Origin: Gracilibacillus oryzae
GTDB taxonomy: Bacteria; Bacillota; Bacilli; Bacillales; Amphibacillaceae
Assembly (NCBI RefSeq): GCF_009498735.1
Contig: NZ_ML762424.1
Coordinates: 213,194 to 268,403 of the forward strand
Direction: 5' to 3'
Length of the DNA stretch: 55,210 nucleotides
The translations under genes and the position numbers were made by a program. Of this stretch, positions 19,113 through 24,787 are shown one piece after another (the stretch's first letter is position 1; each line of letters begins with the position of its first letter). The notes under the pieces were generated by a model. That model had not been told where the DNA came from. It saw only the letters and a list, made by a program, of their open reading frames with translations, and searched no databases.

Positions 19113-19128
19113 AAAGGGCTATAAACAA

Positions 19129-19174
19129 TGATTCCGACTGGTCTCGAACCAGCGACCTCCACCCTGTCAAGGTG
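19129..19174 (-). other. Prophage attachment site: 3' half of tRNA-Val(GAC)
   Basis: Read on the minus strand, this stretch has CACC-TTGACAG-GGTG (anticodon stem and loop with GAC), a variable loop GAGGTC, the T arm GCTGG-TTCGAGA-CCAGT, and the acceptor strand CGGAATC plus A. The 5' half (D arm and acceptor 5' strand) is absent: the sequence to the right is not tRNA-like. No CCA is encoded. A 3' tRNA half next to phage genes is the classic mark of integration in a tRNA gene. The intact tRNA should lie at the other prophage end. Confidence 0.85.
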
Positions 19175-19359: not shown

Positions 19360-20325
19360 TTACTTTAATTCAAACTCTTCGAGGTCTAGATATAAGTCAT
19401 CTGGTACACCTTTATGAGTAACACTATATCTAATAATGCCAAGGTATGGTCGAAATTCAATATTTTGTTGATCTGGATTAGTATTATAAATTAAGTTAAA
19501 TATCTGAACATTTTCAAACTTATTCTCGTTTAGTGCATTAATTTCCGTAACATCATTGACGTACCAAAAATACGACAAATTCGGATTCGTAATAGTTTCA
19601 ATATCTCCGAATCTTTGACCTTCAAACAATGGAAACTCAAAAAGCAAGTCATCATATGTTAACAAAGGGGATGGATTTGACAATTTGTGGTTTACAACTT
19701 TTTGTGGATCATTTAAAAAATCTACTACACCTTGTATTTCTTTATTTGGAATATGAAATAACTTATTAGCAACTAATAATAATCCTGATTTATTTTCATT
19801 ATTTATTAATTCTATAGGTTCCACAGATGTTAATTCATTCTTATTCATTTCATCAAATCTCTGTTTTATAGTACTTCTTATGTTAACTGGATAATTATTC
19901 ACTATATAAAAACTAATATTTAATTTTTCATTTTTTATTTCTTTTAAAATCTCTAATTTCATTGTTATTTTTTTTTTGAAATATTCCCTATATCTTGGGG
20001 AGAATCCGTAATATTCACCTGAATACATCCAATAATTCCCTTTTTTCAAAGGGATATAATTATCCGATTCATTTACATTCCATTTATAGGAGTCTTTAAA
20101 ATCATATTCAATTTTATTGACCTTAGTGATCTCAGCAGCTTCTATTTGCGCTTCTGCCGCCTTTATAGCTGCTTCCATTTGAACTTTACTTGATTCATTT
20201 ATTGCTTTCAATTGAAATATTCCAGCCACAATAACTGTTATAACCGCCACAATTATGGGAACAATTATAGATGTTATAGTTTCTTTGAACGATAAATCCC
20301 ACTTCATTTTCCTTTTATTATCCAT
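19360..20325 (-). CDS. Membrane-anchored protein of unknown function, prophage accessory gene
   Basis: This 321-residue protein has one N-terminal membrane helix (about 15-40, ITSIIVPIIVAVITVIVAGI). An Ala/Glu/Gln helix with the repeat EAAIKAAEAQIEAAE follows. A C-terminal domain begins near 90 with PLKKGNYWMYSGEYYG, reminiscent of exported domains with a PLxxGNYWxY motif, although there is no signal peptidase site. It is the gene nearest the attachment site, where lysogenic conversion genes usually sit. I do not recognise the family. Roles in superinfection exclusion or envelope change are guesses. Confidence 0.6.
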   Translation of the reverse strand: MDNKRKMKWDLSFKETITSIIVPIIVAVITVIVAGIFQLKAINESSKVQMEAAIKAAEAQIEAAEITKVNKIEYDFKDSYKWNVNESDNYIPLKKGNYWMYSGEYYGFSPRYREYFKKKITMKLEILKEIKNEKLNISFYIVNNYPVNIRSTIKQRFDEMNKNELTSVEPIELINNENKSGLLLVANKLFHIPNKEIQGVVDFLNDPQKVVNHKLSNPSPLLTYDDLLFEFPLFEGQRFGDIETITNPNLSYFWYVNDVTEINALNENKFENVQIFNLIYNTNPDQQNIEFRPYLGIIRYSVTHKGVPDDLYLDLEEFELK

Positions 20326-20550: not shown

Positions 20551-21534
20551 CTATAAACTTTCACAAGCCAATCCGTTTCCATCACCGTCTAATCGATGTG
20601 GATCACCTGGTCCTGCTGCTTCAAAGAAAGCTTGTGCTTCTTCGTGCGAGTTAAAGTCTCCACAGTCTCGGTCTGCTCCGTTTGGATTATACGGACCGTT
20701 GTAGCCACTATTGTTACCTTCTTCTACAACAGGAGTAGTAACAGGTGGAACAACTACTTCAACAGGATCACCATCTAATACAAATAATACTCTTGTACCA
20801 TCTGGATACTGTTCTAATTGATTCCCTACCCAAGCACCAGCACCACGATTATCAGATGGTTCTACGTATTTAACACTAGCGCCTTCTCCACCTTCTTCAC
20901 ACATAGCCATAGGGAATTCATCTCTATCGTAGCCATCTCTTGTTGGAATTCCAGCTAAAGAATCGTTTCGATTTTCATCTGCTCCGTTACGATCAATTGT
21001 ACAGATAGCTGATTCTCCGTTTGCGATAGCTTCTTCAATATGTGCAGCAGTTTCTGGATATTCGCTGACAGGGAAATGTAATGTCACATCGTAAGTAGCA
21101 ATGACCTCACCATTATATGTAATATCCACTGTTCTAGTAGAAGCATTCCAGCCTACATCTGCCCCAAGAGATTCGCTTACAAATCGTAACGGTACCAACG
21201 TGCGAGCATTTTTAATTTGTGCCGGTACATCAATGGTTACAGTCTGACCATTTACTTTTGTATACTTCGATCCAATTTTTAACCATATATCTATGTCGTC
21301 TTTTTCAGCTGTTACTACTCGATTTTTAGCATCCCAGCCTACATCTGCCCCCAATGCCTCAAATATCCCACGTAATGGTACAAGCGTACGTCCATCTTGA
21401 ACGATTGGTGGTTGATCATAATATTGTTTCTCTCCATTAATTAAAATGGATACTCCATCAGCAGCTGATACACTGATTCCAGAAAAAGTGGAAATCATAA
21501 CAAGTGCAATTAAGGCGTTTAGTAGCTTCTTCAT
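20551..21534 (-). CDS. Secreted NucB-type deoxyribonuclease with stalk and excalibur domains
   Basis: This 327-residue exported protein has a signal peptide (ending VSAADG). A copper-amine-oxidase-N-like stalk domain follows at ~27-140, with [13 protein letters not shown] and [13 protein letters not shown] half-repeats. A NucA/NucB-type nuclease domain occupies ~150-265 ([20 protein letters not shown] and then [15 protein letters not shown]). A Pro/Thr/Val linker leads to an excalibur calcium-binding module at the end with [10 protein letters not shown]. NucB enzymes degrade extracellular DNA. It is read leftward with the accessory end of the prophage, and a GGAGGG ribosome site precedes it. 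Phage carriage of such a fusion is unusual. Confidence 0.82.
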
Positions 21535-22038: not shown

Positions 22039-22416
22039 GTGGAAAGGTTGAAAAATTTAGATAAAGATGAATGGCAAATTGCTTCGCGGTTTTTATTTGT
22101 GGATCTAACTTTGAAAGTGATCGATCGAGATCTAAAAATGCTGAAAGAGTCATCACCATTTAAAATTAGTGAGCCGTATATTACTCTGTTGGAGAGAACA
22201 AAGAAGATTGGTACTGCTGAAAGAAAAGCATTAAAGAAGAAAATGTATCAGGAGAATATTGGGGTAGTTCAAAACAAAAAAGAGGAATCCTTTACCTATT
22301 ACTTATTTTCTTGCAAAGGGGCAAAAGAAGAAAGAAGTTATTTTAATCCAAATATAAAGAAAAAAGTGGAGAATATATTGGATGAGTGGATGAAACAAGA
22401 TAATAAGATGGCTTAA
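22039..22416 (+). CDS. Conserved-looking phage or Bacillus protein of unknown function
   Basis: This 125-residue protein is placed from a GTG at 22039; a TTG at 22048 behind AGGGGTGGAAAGG is equally possible. It is charged and helical, with FKISEPYITLLERTKKIG in the middle and a C-terminal YFNPNIKKKVENILDEW. Short proteins of this look occur in Bacillus prophages, but I cannot name the family. It is the first of three rightward genes in an otherwise leftward prophage. Confidence 0.55.
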   Translation: MERLKNLDKDEWQIASRFLFVDLTLKVIDRDLKMLKESSPFKISEPYITLLERTKKIGTAERKALKKKMYQENIGVVQNKKEESFTYYLFSCKGAKEERSYFNPNIKKKVENILDEWMKQDNKMA

Positions 22417-22548
22417 GTTAACTTCCCTCTAATCAGTTAAATTCATAATTTCTAAAATAATATAGATAATTTTTCCCAATAAAGGTATTATGAACTATAT
22501 GGAAAATAAGAGACATAAAAATCTTTAATTGTTTTAGGGGTGGAAGAA

Positions 22549-23445
22549 ATGGAAGTATTGATACCAAGTAATTTCAATAGATTTACTATGTACGATCTAC
22601 TATCTTCAGTTATAGACAATGACTTAAATCCGAAAGACACTGTGATTTCCTTTAACTTTACTAAGTTGAAATTTATTGAACCAGCAGGAGTAACAATTTT
22701 AAGTAATTTATTCGAATGGTTACATAAACGAGGGGTTTCTTCCAGAATCATTTATCCAGAAAATTGTTCTGGCAAAAAAAATCCAATACAATTCCTTGAT
22801 GACTCCAATTTTTTTATGAGATATGCAGGCAAAAATCTTACTAGGAATCCAAATCCTCGACCGACTACAATTCCATTAAAATTAGTGGCGTATAGCGACG
22901 GACCCAGGTGGCTAGAAAGAGAGTTTTCTTTTTGGTTATCAAACCAGCTAAATATCCCTCTGACATCCTTAGCCACTATTAGAATTTGTTTTGGTGAAAT
23001 TTTTAATAATATCCGAGATCATGCACAAGAAAATATAGGTTGTATATTTGCTCAGCATTATCCTGGTTCTAATGAAATTAAGATCACCATATCGGATTTC
23101 GGAGTAGGGATACCTGAGAACATACGCAGAGTAAGACCATCTTTACAAGACGATGAGGCAGTAATGATAGCAACAACAGAGGGGTTCACTTCACAAACTT
23201 CACCTAGAAACTTAGGTGCTGGTTTACACACTTTGATTGAGAACGTTGTGAAAAATAATAACGGATCTGTTCACATACACTCAAATTATGGTATATTAAA
23301 CTGTACAAAGGGTATAGTTAGTAATGAAGTGGAAAAGTTTGCTTCCCTAAAAGGGAGCTTTTACCCAGGAACACTAATTGAAACTATCCTTAAAACAGAT
23401 AGTATTCAAAATATAACTGATATTGAGGAGGAGTTCGAATGGTAA
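22549..23445 (+). CDS. STAS-like / GHKL ATPase fusion protein
   Basis: This 298-residue cytoplasmic protein starts at the ATG at 22549 behind AGGGGTGG. Residues 1-75 look like a STAS-type domain (VISFNFTKLKFIEPAGVTIL). Residues ~110-245 form a GHKL/histidine-kinase-like ATPase: N box E150, N153 and H158 in GEIFNNIRDHA, G1 box DFGVGIP at 183-189, G2 box GAGL at 223-226. There is no dimerisation or phospho-His domain, so it is not a classic sensor kinase; it resembles anti-sigma kinases of the SpoIIAB/RsbW kind. It overlaps the next gene by 7 bases, which encodes a separate STAS-like protein. Confidence 0.8.
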   Translation: MEVLIPSNFNRFTMYDLLSSVIDNDLNPKDTVISFNFTKLKFIEPAGVTILSNLFEWLHKRGVSSRIIYPENCSGKKNPIQFLDDSNFFMRYAGKNLTRNPNPRPTTIPLKLVAYSDGPRWLEREFSFWLSNQLNIPLTSLATIRICFGEIFNNIRDHAQENIGCIFAQHYPGSNEIKITISDFGVGIPENIRRVRPSLQDDEAVMIATTEGFTSQTSPRNLGAGLHTLIENVVKNNNGSVHIHSNYGILNCTKGIVSNEVEKFASLKGSFYPGTLIETILKTDSIQNITDIEEEFEW

Positions 23446-23741
23446 TAAAAATAGCTAGCCACGTAGAACGTTGTTACTCCAACGAAGAAGGCAAAATAAT
23501 ACAAAACTTAATTAAATCTAATTTAGAAAAAAATGTCTCTTTAACGCTTTCGTTTGAAGGAGTTTCAGGTGTTACTTCATCTTTTGTAAACACTGCCTTT
23601 ATTGAGTTGCTTGATAACTATAATTTTGATTTTATAAAGGCAAACATTAAGTTTATCCACACTACAAAACAAATAAATAAAATGATCAAAGAGAGATATG
23701 CTTTCGAAGTAAAAAAAAGAAATGAGTTAGTCATTGCTTAG
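23439..23741 (+). CDS. STAS-like protein (DUF4325-type)
   Basis: This 100-residue protein resembles the DUF4325 STAS-like family. Its central LTLSFEGVSGVTSSFVNTAF at residues 35-54 has the serine-rich turn (T46, S47, S48) where anti-anti-sigma factors carry their phosphorylated Ser. It is translationally coupled to the GHKL ATPase gene, with a GAGGAG ribosome site inside that gene's end. Together they look like a partner-switching pair. Whether it controls transcription, defence or lysogeny is unknown. Confidence 0.75.
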   Translation: MVIKIASHVERCYSNEEGKIIQNLIKSNLEKNVSLTLSFEGVSGVTSSFVNTAFIELLDNYNFDFIKANIKFIHTTKQINKMIKERYAFEVKKRNELVIA

Positions 23742-23757
23742 AATACTCTTATAACGT

Positions 23758-23791
23758 AAAAGTTGCCATCATTTTCATGATGGCAACTTTT
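23758..23791. terminator. Strong bidirectional terminator
   Basis: AAAAGTTGCCATCA pairs perfectly with TGATGGCAACTTTT around a 6-base loop, giving T runs in both directions. It separates the rightward STAS cassette from the leftward amidase gene. Confidence 0.92.
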
Positions 23792-23827
23792 ATAGTTAGT
23801 TAACCAATCAATATATTGTAAACCTGC

Positions 23828-24787
23828 TTACTTAGATTGTTCTACTCGCCCTTCTAATTCGGCAACTCGATTCTTAAGTGGATTAATTTCATACTCACGA
23901 ATCTTTTCAGCAAAACGATCTAAAACTTCTGCAGCTTGTTCCCTGGTTAATGGCATTTTAGGATTTGAACCGTCAAAATAACCTTGCATTACTTGTTGTT
24001 TCCACACATCTTTTGCCCACTCTGAAGGTTGATCAGATGTAGATGGTTTATCCTGTTTCTGTTCAAATAACCTTTTCATTTCATGCTTTAATTCATCAAT
24101 TTCCTTTTGTAATTCCTTTTCTGCGCTCACGCTTAACCCCTCCTCTTTATTTTTTGGTTCAGATGTCGCCGTTTCTACTTTCTCGCTCTTCGGTTGTACT
24201 CCAAAGTACCGGCATACAAGAGCGTAATGTACATAAGATAGATTGTCGAGTTGTTCTGGATCAAGTAAATATTGTTTTAATTCTTTGGGATTCGTAAAGA
24301 AAAAACTTTCCGTTAACAATACCGGCATGTTTGTTTCTTTTACCACATAGAATTCTGACCATGTTCCTGGAGTACATGGGTATGTTCCATTACTCCATAA
24401 CGGATACCTGAAGGCCTCCATTTCCTCTTTATATAAATTTGCTAGATGTTTTCCTTCTTCGCTGTTATACCAATAGAATCCAGCAGCACCTTTTGCAGTT
24501 GCGCTCCCTGCATTGGAGTGAATAAAGATTGCTGTGTCTACTTTATGATAGTTACAATATCTTACCCTTTCAGAAAGAGACATTTTGCGTTTTCCACCTT
24601 CTTGGGGAAACAATACTGTAATATTGGAGTGTTCTCTCAATAATTTCACTGTATCTTTTGCGATTTCATAATTCGAGTCGAATTCTTCATATTCTCCATC
24701 AGCATCTAAGTTAGTGAAAATACCTTTTCCCCCGGTCAGTTCCCATGTGTCATGGTTGTGTCCAGCAAATATTGCGACTTTACTCAT
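23828..24787 (-). CDS. Phage endolysin, N-acetylmuramoyl-L-alanine amidase
   Basis: This 319-residue lysis enzyme cuts the peptide from peptidoglycan. The N-terminal Amidase_3 domain (1-200) has the zinc and catalytic motifs AGHNHD, SNYEIA, FIHSNAG and LTESFFFTN. A Lys/Glu linker and coiled coil (~200-245) follows, then an SLH-like segment (WAKDVWKQQVMQGYFDG, TREQAAEVLDRF) that may bind the wall. There is no signal peptide, so export depends on the holin. Its start overlaps the holin stop by one base (TAATG). Confidence 0.9.
   Translation of the reverse strand: MSKVAIFAGHNHDTWELTGGKGIFTNLDADGEYEEFDSNYEIAKDTVKLLREHSNITVLFPQEGGKRKMSLSERVRYCNYHKVDTAIFIHSNAGSATAKGAAGFYWYNSEEGKHLANLYKEEMEAFRYPLWSNGTYPCTPGTWSEFYVVKETNMPVLLTESFFFTNPKELKQYLLDPEQLDNLSYVHYALVCRYFGVQPKSEKVETATSEPKNKEEGLSVSAEKELQKEIDELKHEMKRLFEQKQDKPSTSDQPSEWAKDVWKQQVMQGYFDGSNPKMPLTREQAAEVLDRFAEKIREYEINPLKNRVAELEGRVEQSK

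Follow-up and report, generated by a model that had tools for sequence, protein, structure and literature searches.

The window analysed here, a 55,210-nucleotide stretch of the Gracilibacillus oryzae genome, contains a prophage region in which two overlapping rightward genes encode a GHKL-family kinase and a small STAS-like protein. We read this pair, with a probability of roughly 0.6, as a two-gene, toxin-less member of the CapK/VapK-CapS/VapS superfamily, carried as a prophage accessory unit, that would act as a kinase-STAS switch responsive to DNA damage or single-stranded DNA (ssDNA) and deliver its output in trans. As judged from sequence, the pair is a closed two-gene unit with the architecture of VapK-VapS and homology to both proteins, its catalytic and acceptor residues are conserved, and it has neither a PIN toxin nor a helix-turn-helix (HTH) domain. 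The features of the unit are:

22549..23445, + strand: GHKL-family kinase of VapK-like layout (open reading frame 22540/22549-23445; 298 amino acids from the ATG at 22549)
23439..23741, + strand: STAS-like (DUF4325) partner of 100 amino acids, with a VapS-like core and the likely phosphoacceptor S47
23439..23445, + strand: 7-base overlap of the kinase and STAS genes; the same overlap is found in 40 of the 62 lineage rows described below
23757..23792, no strand: bidirectional terminator between the pair and a convergent endolysin gene; 16-nucleotide perfect inverted repeat

The first-pass annotation of this DNA had held that pairs of this kind have no assigned function, but a 2026 study has characterised VapK-VapS-VapC and CapK-CapS, the relatives nearest to them (Chambers et al., EMBO J 2026, PMC13373217). 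In that account CapK combines HTH, STAS and GHKL parts and CapS is a STAS-winged helix repressor; VapK is a STAS-GHKL kinase, VapS a STAS antitoxin and VapC a PIN toxin. CapK is activated by ssDNA in vitro, and serine phosphorylation of CapS breaks the CapS dimer. The phospho-mimic VapS S48E loses its hold on VapC, and VapKSC confers about 2 logs of protection against phage Bas42, which is lost with VapK F54A, VapS S48A or VapC D28A. The published survey kept loci in which vapK, vapS and vapC occur together, and toxin-less pairs would therefore not be listed in it (PMC13373217). Beyond this paper, a literature search that did not extend to bioRxiv or subscription journals found no earlier report of the toxin-less pair except passing annotations: in a table for Francisella phage KIRK, CI is followed directly by a hypothetical protein of 293 amino acids and a DUF4325 protein (PMC7924643), and a STAS-like protein is listed in a P. 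larvae prophage (PMC9341999).

The free STAS protein matches DUF4325 (PF14213) at 43.6 bits against a cut-off of 23 (E = 2.4e-11) and phrog_9989 at 3.4e-34. A profile of 22 homologues retrieved Escherichia VapS from the PDB at E = 1.9e-12 (entry 9z7o, the VapS-VapC structure of PMC13373217) and nothing else below 0.05; the single sequence reached 9z7o at 0.5 only. No CapS appeared among the PDB matches of the profile at E up to 10, the presence of entries 9z71-9z73 in that copy of the PDB being unchecked. S47 of the 100-amino-acid protein, in the acceptor turn T46-S47-S48-F-V-N, aligns with S48, the phosphosite of VapS (residue 66 of the chain, whose numbering we count as shifted by 18), and the Ser/Thr turn at 46-48 to which the first-pass annotation had pointed thus holds the likely phosphosite. 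Among 60 rows the S47 column is Ser or Thr in 59, S48 is kept in 57, F49 in 60 and N51 in 59. The protein ends near its core, without the C-terminal extension of the VapS type; 55 of the 60 rows measure 93-103 amino acids (four are longer and one is shorter), as against 115-125 in five PIN-bearing loci. The family phrog_5816 (441 positions) matches the kinase and the STAS protein at different places and therefore looks like a fusion of the two. Single proteins with a kinase and a DUF4325/STAS part are also encoded at L161 (1120-2406; the STAS part by weak profile match, 1e-4) and L156 (1914-3158; by annotation).

The kinase consists of a STAS-like domain (residues ~1-105), a Bergerat ATPase (~106-290) and an acidic C-terminal tail ending in DIEEEFEW. 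It matches phrog_3364 at 5.9e-47, which, with the matches of its partner to DUF4325 and phrog_9989, excludes chance. It passes no Pfam cut-off (HATPase_c, 23.3 bits against 26.4; HATPase_c_2, 20.6 against 27.4) and scores 14.3 bits against the SpoIIAB model TIGR01925, where 135 are needed; a profile of 25 kinases finds CheA (3e-5) and SpoIIAB (1l0o, 0.006) in the PDB. The GHKL motifs are E150, N153/N154, D183-F-G-V-G-I-P and G223-A-G-L. The complete set reported in the first-pass annotation is thus present, with one correction: the N-box asparagine is N154, found in all 62 two-gene kinases, and position 153 is Asn in only 59. E150, H158, D183, G187, G223 and G225 are likewise invariant, and G185 occurs in 61 of 62. 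The earlier STAS-like calls, well supported for the free protein, fare less well at the N-terminus of the kinase, where the best PDB matches of the profile are RsbS (E = 0.04) and SpoIIAA (0.55) and hhalign against the free STAS family gives a probability of only 3%; the call there rests on end-to-end similarity to kinases of VapK layout. The acceptor loop of this domain reads I-E-P-x, with P45 kept in 55 of 62 rows, so that the kinase's own STAS-like domain is probably not itself a phosphoacceptor. The column of F42 is aromatic in at least 55 of the 62 rows (the letters of two rows were not printed) and is W or F in all five kinases from PIN-bearing loci.

To place the pair among its relatives, we ran scans that yielded 48 kinase-bearing viral loci, 33 viral loci bearing the STAS gene and 54 loci from a species-genome collection, one of which (L137) has neither gene by profile, leaving 53 (L084-L136). 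The STAS gene adjoins the kinase gene in 52 of these 53, and L119 is cut by a contig end. This co-occurrence in other genomes, together with the prophage setting, upholds the first-pass proposal of a phage-borne pair of partner-switch type in an accessory slot, with one STAS-like domain fused to the kinase and one STAS protein free. In a tree of 81 kinases, built by a quick method with a midpoint root after removal of near-copies (90%) and short pieces, 62 rows including that of the window group together with support of 88. Four kinases from PIN loci form their own clade (98) next to this group and six Bacteroidota pairs form another (99), while the remaining nine, L163 included, are deeper relatives. 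Kinase and STAS distances are correlated (r = 0.59, n = 60), none of 1000 permutations reaching as high a value. Among 398 genomes of the window's phylum, profile matches were found in 12, two of them of the window type. Plasmids contributed five records, of which the one covering most of the query is an S. agalactiae prophage-like record.

The unit is closed at its 3' end. The arms of the terminator (23757-23772 and 23777-23792) are 100% complementary around a 4-nucleotide loop, and the predicted folding energy of the hairpin is about -23 kcal/mol whichever strand is read (z of about -9; none of 200 shuffles as good). A simple terminator scan overlooked this repeat. The three rightward reading frames, the 7-base overlap and the perfect bidirectional terminator of the first-pass annotation are all confirmed at their positions. 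A terminator-like hairpin lies within 120 bp of the STAS stop codon in 21 of the 57 two-gene rows that could be examined (five of the 62 could not), with 0.35 expected; among the six Bacteroidota pairs the count is two, and among the five PIN loci none.

A PIN gene follows the STAS gene in L004/Javan172, L047, L138, L155 and L171; that of Javan172 is unannotated in GenBank and matches below the Pfam cut-off. In L163 no PIN match was found. Pfam searches of 52 of the 58 same-strand downstream reading frames gave four PIN matches (L155, L004, L047 and L095) and revealed no hidden PIN in the 62-row lineage, and a VapC profile built from three of these PINs finds none beside the 62 rows; since it also misses the PIN of L095, the profile is not fully sensitive. 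The L095 gene, considered as a VapC of the lineage, was rejected: it lies some 1.2 kb further downstream, after an ABC gene, and belongs to an ordinary Phd-PIN pair. No VapC-like reading frame was found in the window, where the terminator and the convergent lysin gene come after the STAS gene. Toxin and toxin-blocking extension having been tested for and found absent, the pair is no member of VapKSC; nor does it belong to CapKS. As far as sequence can tell, either the STAS protein must itself serve as the output, or a factor whose gene lies elsewhere must do so.

The PIN-bearing relatives have settings of their own. In Streptococcus phage Javan172 (L004, 6251-6781, and likewise in L046 and L083) a PIN-like reading frame directly 3' of the STAS gene completes a vapKSC-type operon, which lies between an XRE/ImmA-like pair and an integrase; L047 is a second phage case. 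The operon of Deinococcus gobiensis plasmid P5 (L155, 2527-4879), encoding ATP-binding, STAS-like and PIN proteins, stands behind an HTH regulator. In L138 (472-2403), from the same family as the window's genome, the PIN gene overlaps the STAS gene and the operon follows genes resembling a methylase and a phage regulator.

The tail of the kinase is a signature of the two-gene lineage. A tryptophan lies within the last five residues in 61 of 62 rows, and the final 14 residues carry a mean net charge of -5.3. The tail is not a mere by-product of gene overlap, because the tryptophan is kept with the 7-base overlap (40 of 40), where the overlap is longer, at 10, 13 or 16 bases (16 of 16), and where the genes do not overlap (2 of 2); it is lost in the single 4-base row. 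The glutamate codons of the tail may double as a ribosome-binding sequence for the STAS gene. Bacteroidota kinases and some of those from PIN loci have acidic tails with Phe or Leu in place of Trp. Acidic, Phe-ended tails are carried by the ssDNA-binding protein SSB and by T7 gp2.5, and a likeness of the kinase tail to these is a hypothesis that we put forward. It extends, tentatively and at less than even odds, to a third class of ssDNA-alarm pairs beside CapKS and VapKSC, distributed over prophages, some restriction loci and the chromosomes of several phyla. In such a class the STAS protein would act in trans, on a target that is conserved among cells, and the SSB-like tail, an acidic run with a terminal aromatic residue, might plug the ssDNA groove until genuine ssDNA displaces it or tether the kinase to the SSB interaction network where forks have stalled. 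The main text of PMC13373217 uses none of the terms acidic, C-terminal tail, SSB and orphan.

By analogy with VapK-VapS, the kinase in all likelihood phosphorylates its STAS partner on cue, and our best guess for the cue is ssDNA. We infer kinase activity, the ssDNA trigger and the role of S47 as acceptor. In the mechanism that we propose, ssDNA arising from DNA damage or phage replication would enter a groove between the STAS-like and GHKL domains, near F42, and activate the kinase; the activated kinase would phosphorylate the free STAS protein on S47, which would then drop, or pick up, a partner encoded outside the operon. Because members of the lineage occur in more than one phylum, on chromosomes and in prophages as well as next to some restriction systems, the likeliest purpose is an alarm for DNA damage or infection. 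It would arrest or defend the cell either by way of a target that is widely conserved or by the action of the STAS protein alone.

The prophage spans C1:232321-278368, about 46 kb, and is bounded by 47-bp perfect direct repeats. It contains the pair at a distance of 3.4 kb from attL, in the interval that separates the endolysin gene from the attachment site. The surrounding features are:

19128..19174, no strand: attL, 47-bp perfect direct repeat; the partner copy, C1:278322-278368, lies beyond the window
22039..22416, + strand: gene 1, 125 amino acids, GTG start; probably outside the module
22417..22548, + strand: intergenic stretch before the kinase gene, where a promoter is expected
23828..24787, - strand: endolysin (Amidase_3), convergent neighbour of the pair

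The repeat resembles what we take to be the terminal part of a tRNA-Asp gene; a search of the window with ARAGORN gave no tRNA. The best sigma-70-like promoter match in 22417-22548 is no better than in shuffled DNA, and no conserved operator is evident upstream of the pair.

A switch that adjusts the timing of prophage induction or lysis upon DNA damage would explain a site beside the endolysin. A peptidoglycan hydrolase adjoins the pair in the window and in all ten further phage loci scanned, of five types; these ten are not a random sample, nine having been picked from 16 listed neighbours for a lysin-like look and the tenth being L003. In the Streptococcus phages that were examined the pair lies between lysin and paratox, and in L011 the first gene upstream encodes an integrase. 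Prophage induction, too, is signalled by DNA damage, the Javan172 operon lies beside an XRE/ImmA-like pair, and the two KIRK proteins come right after CI (PMC7924643). Such internal control is nevertheless unlikely: accessory genes of various kinds occupy the interval from lysin to attachment site, where a second prophage of the same genome has kin of gene 1 without the pair; the pair is found in either orientation relative to the lysin; and the neighbours of the genome loci (58 upstream, 70 downstream, their families not tied to individual loci) are mostly housekeeping genes with few phage genes, as judged by the first 25 families out of 73 and out of 52. Other copies suggest that the pair might relieve or time restriction-modification after DNA damage, the prophage copy acting on host restriction. 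In S. ferus the pair forms the last genes behind a ResIII and Eco57I-methylase set, in S. gordonii it stands behind HsdM- and HsdS-type genes, and in S. 'caviae' an SNF2/PLD helicase gene is directly upstream; Hymenobacter L135 has type I-like genes on the opposite strand, and 88 of 443 capKS loci come after restriction-modification systems (PMC13373217). These loci are few, however, no restriction-modification gene is found among the window neighbours scanned and the S. gordonii kinase is split, so that we regard this role as very doubtful. Across all loci the search was for kin of the L125 and L130 restriction genes, and other systems may be missed. The neighbours of L131 (SecA) and L136 (TRCF), considered as defence genes, were dropped as housekeeping. 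The S. gordonii locus (L130, 4080-12699) comprises HsdR-like, HsdM- and HsdS-type genes, the broken kinase gene, an intact STAS gene, and a small gene with an XRE-type regulator that, by eye and Pfam, resemble a HigB/HigA-type pair; the whole is a small defence cluster.

The first-pass annotation had drawn on the switching of sigma factors by SpoIIAB/SpoIIAA and RsbW/RsbV, and a classical partner switch aimed at a sigma factor of host or phage would share fold and chemistry with the pair; the kinase profile also matches SpoIIAB weakly. Such a switch is nonetheless improbable here, as no sigma gene lies beside the window's pair, the SpoIIAB model is missed by a wide margin, CheA outscores SpoIIAB, and the closest relatives of known function control a toxin or a repressor and act on no sigma factor. 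The one sigma gene among the 52 downstream reading frames probably belongs, by our assignment, to L167, a sporulation-type locus outside the lineage. That the pair is a decayed VapKSC locus which lost its toxin would account for a layout identical but for VapC, and for the broken copies, yet we consider it scarcely credible: the 62 rows are a separate group with invariant catalytic residues in several phyla, the lineage has signatures of its own (short STAS protein, tail tryptophan, terminators), and no loss of S47, E150 or N154 conservation is seen in close relatives.

Several observations weigh against an ssDNA-responsive alarm of the VapK kind. The activation of VapK itself by ssDNA is described as predicted and supported by a mutant, not as shown in vitro (PMC13373217). 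F42 is taken to be the position of VapK F54 and CapK W68 by way of VapK-like kinases, the Escherichia VapK and CapK sequences lying outside the comparison, and in a larger alignment one of five rows of the 'PIN' set, which included the PIN-less L163, has Arg in this column. The support of 88 for the 62-row group falls below the 95 mark, in a tree with a midpoint root. Loci of the window type are rare, in at least 2 of the 398 genomes of its phylum, a lower bound because at most five candidates per genome were scored. The kinase frame is split in 4 of 53 genome loci (L092, L112, L127 and L130) and in phage JX01. Finally, restriction-type genes lie directly upstream on the same strand only in three Streptococcus loci (L122, L125 and L130), among which the L130 kinase is broken. 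A defence or stress-arrest role is still the most economical reading across contexts, few as the defence neighbours are.

Gene 1, which the first-pass annotation had joined to the pair as a three-gene cassette, is an occasional neighbour; the constant unit has two genes. Homologues of gene 1, itself a weak match to phrog_34234 (1.4e-5), occur in 54 of 61 related genomes (its own included), mostly one per genome, and the kinase in two of the 61; a scan of viral contigs gave no close relatives. The window's genome holds four copies, of which one adjoins, by eye, an apparent comK and a signal peptidase gene, and another (C23:15267-15917 region) lies in the lysin-end gap of the second, related prophage, without the pair and directly behind a YolD-family gene. 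An occasional link to the pair is real: three loci have a member of this family immediately 5' of the pair and reading in the same direction (the window; L066, 5180-5869, where a YolD gene again precedes it; and L094), and two others, L080 and L088, have one roughly 1.3 kb 3' of the pair. Kin of gene 1 are within 2 kb of the pair, however, in only 4 of 42 checkable non-redundant rows of the 62 (L094 being a near-copy of a row with too little flank to count), and since gene 1 also occurs alone in the same slot of another prophage, it is not a constant part; the data do not support a fixed third partner. Gene 1 is probably an accessory gene of the same slot that sometimes travels with the pair rather than a part of the module, and a working link between them is unlikely.

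Members of the gene-1 family come after a YolD-family gene in two prophage-type loci, and the family is met repeatedly at the lysis ends of phages. YolD is tied to SOS-type polymerases, and a DNA-damage link of gene 1, if true, would suit a position before an ssDNA-type alarm. Two leftward genes lie nearer attL: 20551-21534 encodes secreted-looking phage cargo with domains of copper-amine-oxidase-N type and NucA/NucB nuclease-like type and an Excalibur motif, and 19360-20325, nearest attL, a protein of 321 amino acids with an N-terminal hydrophobic segment and without a clear family. In L151 (8408-9908) a short reading frame repeats, by eye, the start of the next, integrase-like one, as if its N-terminal part had been duplicated.

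If the pair is such an alarm, the DNA-damage kinase-STAS switch is broader than its two published outputs, in that phages and bacteria have kept a lineage without toxin or repressor. With a VapS-like protein orphaned in this way, the missing output becomes directly testable, and PHROGs 3364 and 9989 gain a testable mechanism. It also raises the question of whether a prophage uses an ssDNA alarm against rival phages or as a readout of the state of its own host.

By score the pair belongs directly to PHROG 3364, PHROG 9989 and DUF4325; both PHROGs are listed with unknown function, and DUF4325 is a fold label. With SpoIIAB-SpoIIAA and RsbW-RsbV it would share the scheme of a GHKL kinase that acts on a STAS serine (PMC13373217), but here the kinase is fused to a STAS-like domain of its own, no sigma factor stands beside the pair, and the score is far below the SpoIIAB model. 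Like CapKS, it sets a kinase with STAS and GHKL parts beside a putative STAS substrate, would follow a DNA-damage logic and has some copies beside restriction-modification systems; in contrast to CapKS, its kinase lacks an HTH and its STAS protein a winged helix (Pfam gives neither at E up to 1), and a terminator and an opposite-strand lysin, not an immune operon, lie downstream. From VapKSC it differs in the lack of a downstream VapC (PIN) gene and of the C-terminal extension (VapS 94-116) that blocks VapC, and in the acidic Trp tail and frequent terminator closure of the two-gene lineage. It shares with VapKSC a STAS-GHKL kinase without HTH, followed by a small DUF4325 protein with Ser at the position of VapS S48. 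By alignment through VapK-like kinases rather than Escherichia VapK itself, F42 may correspond to the aromatic ssDNA contact proposed for VapK. Operons of the VapKSC kind, PIN gene included, are likewise carried by phages (L004 and L047).

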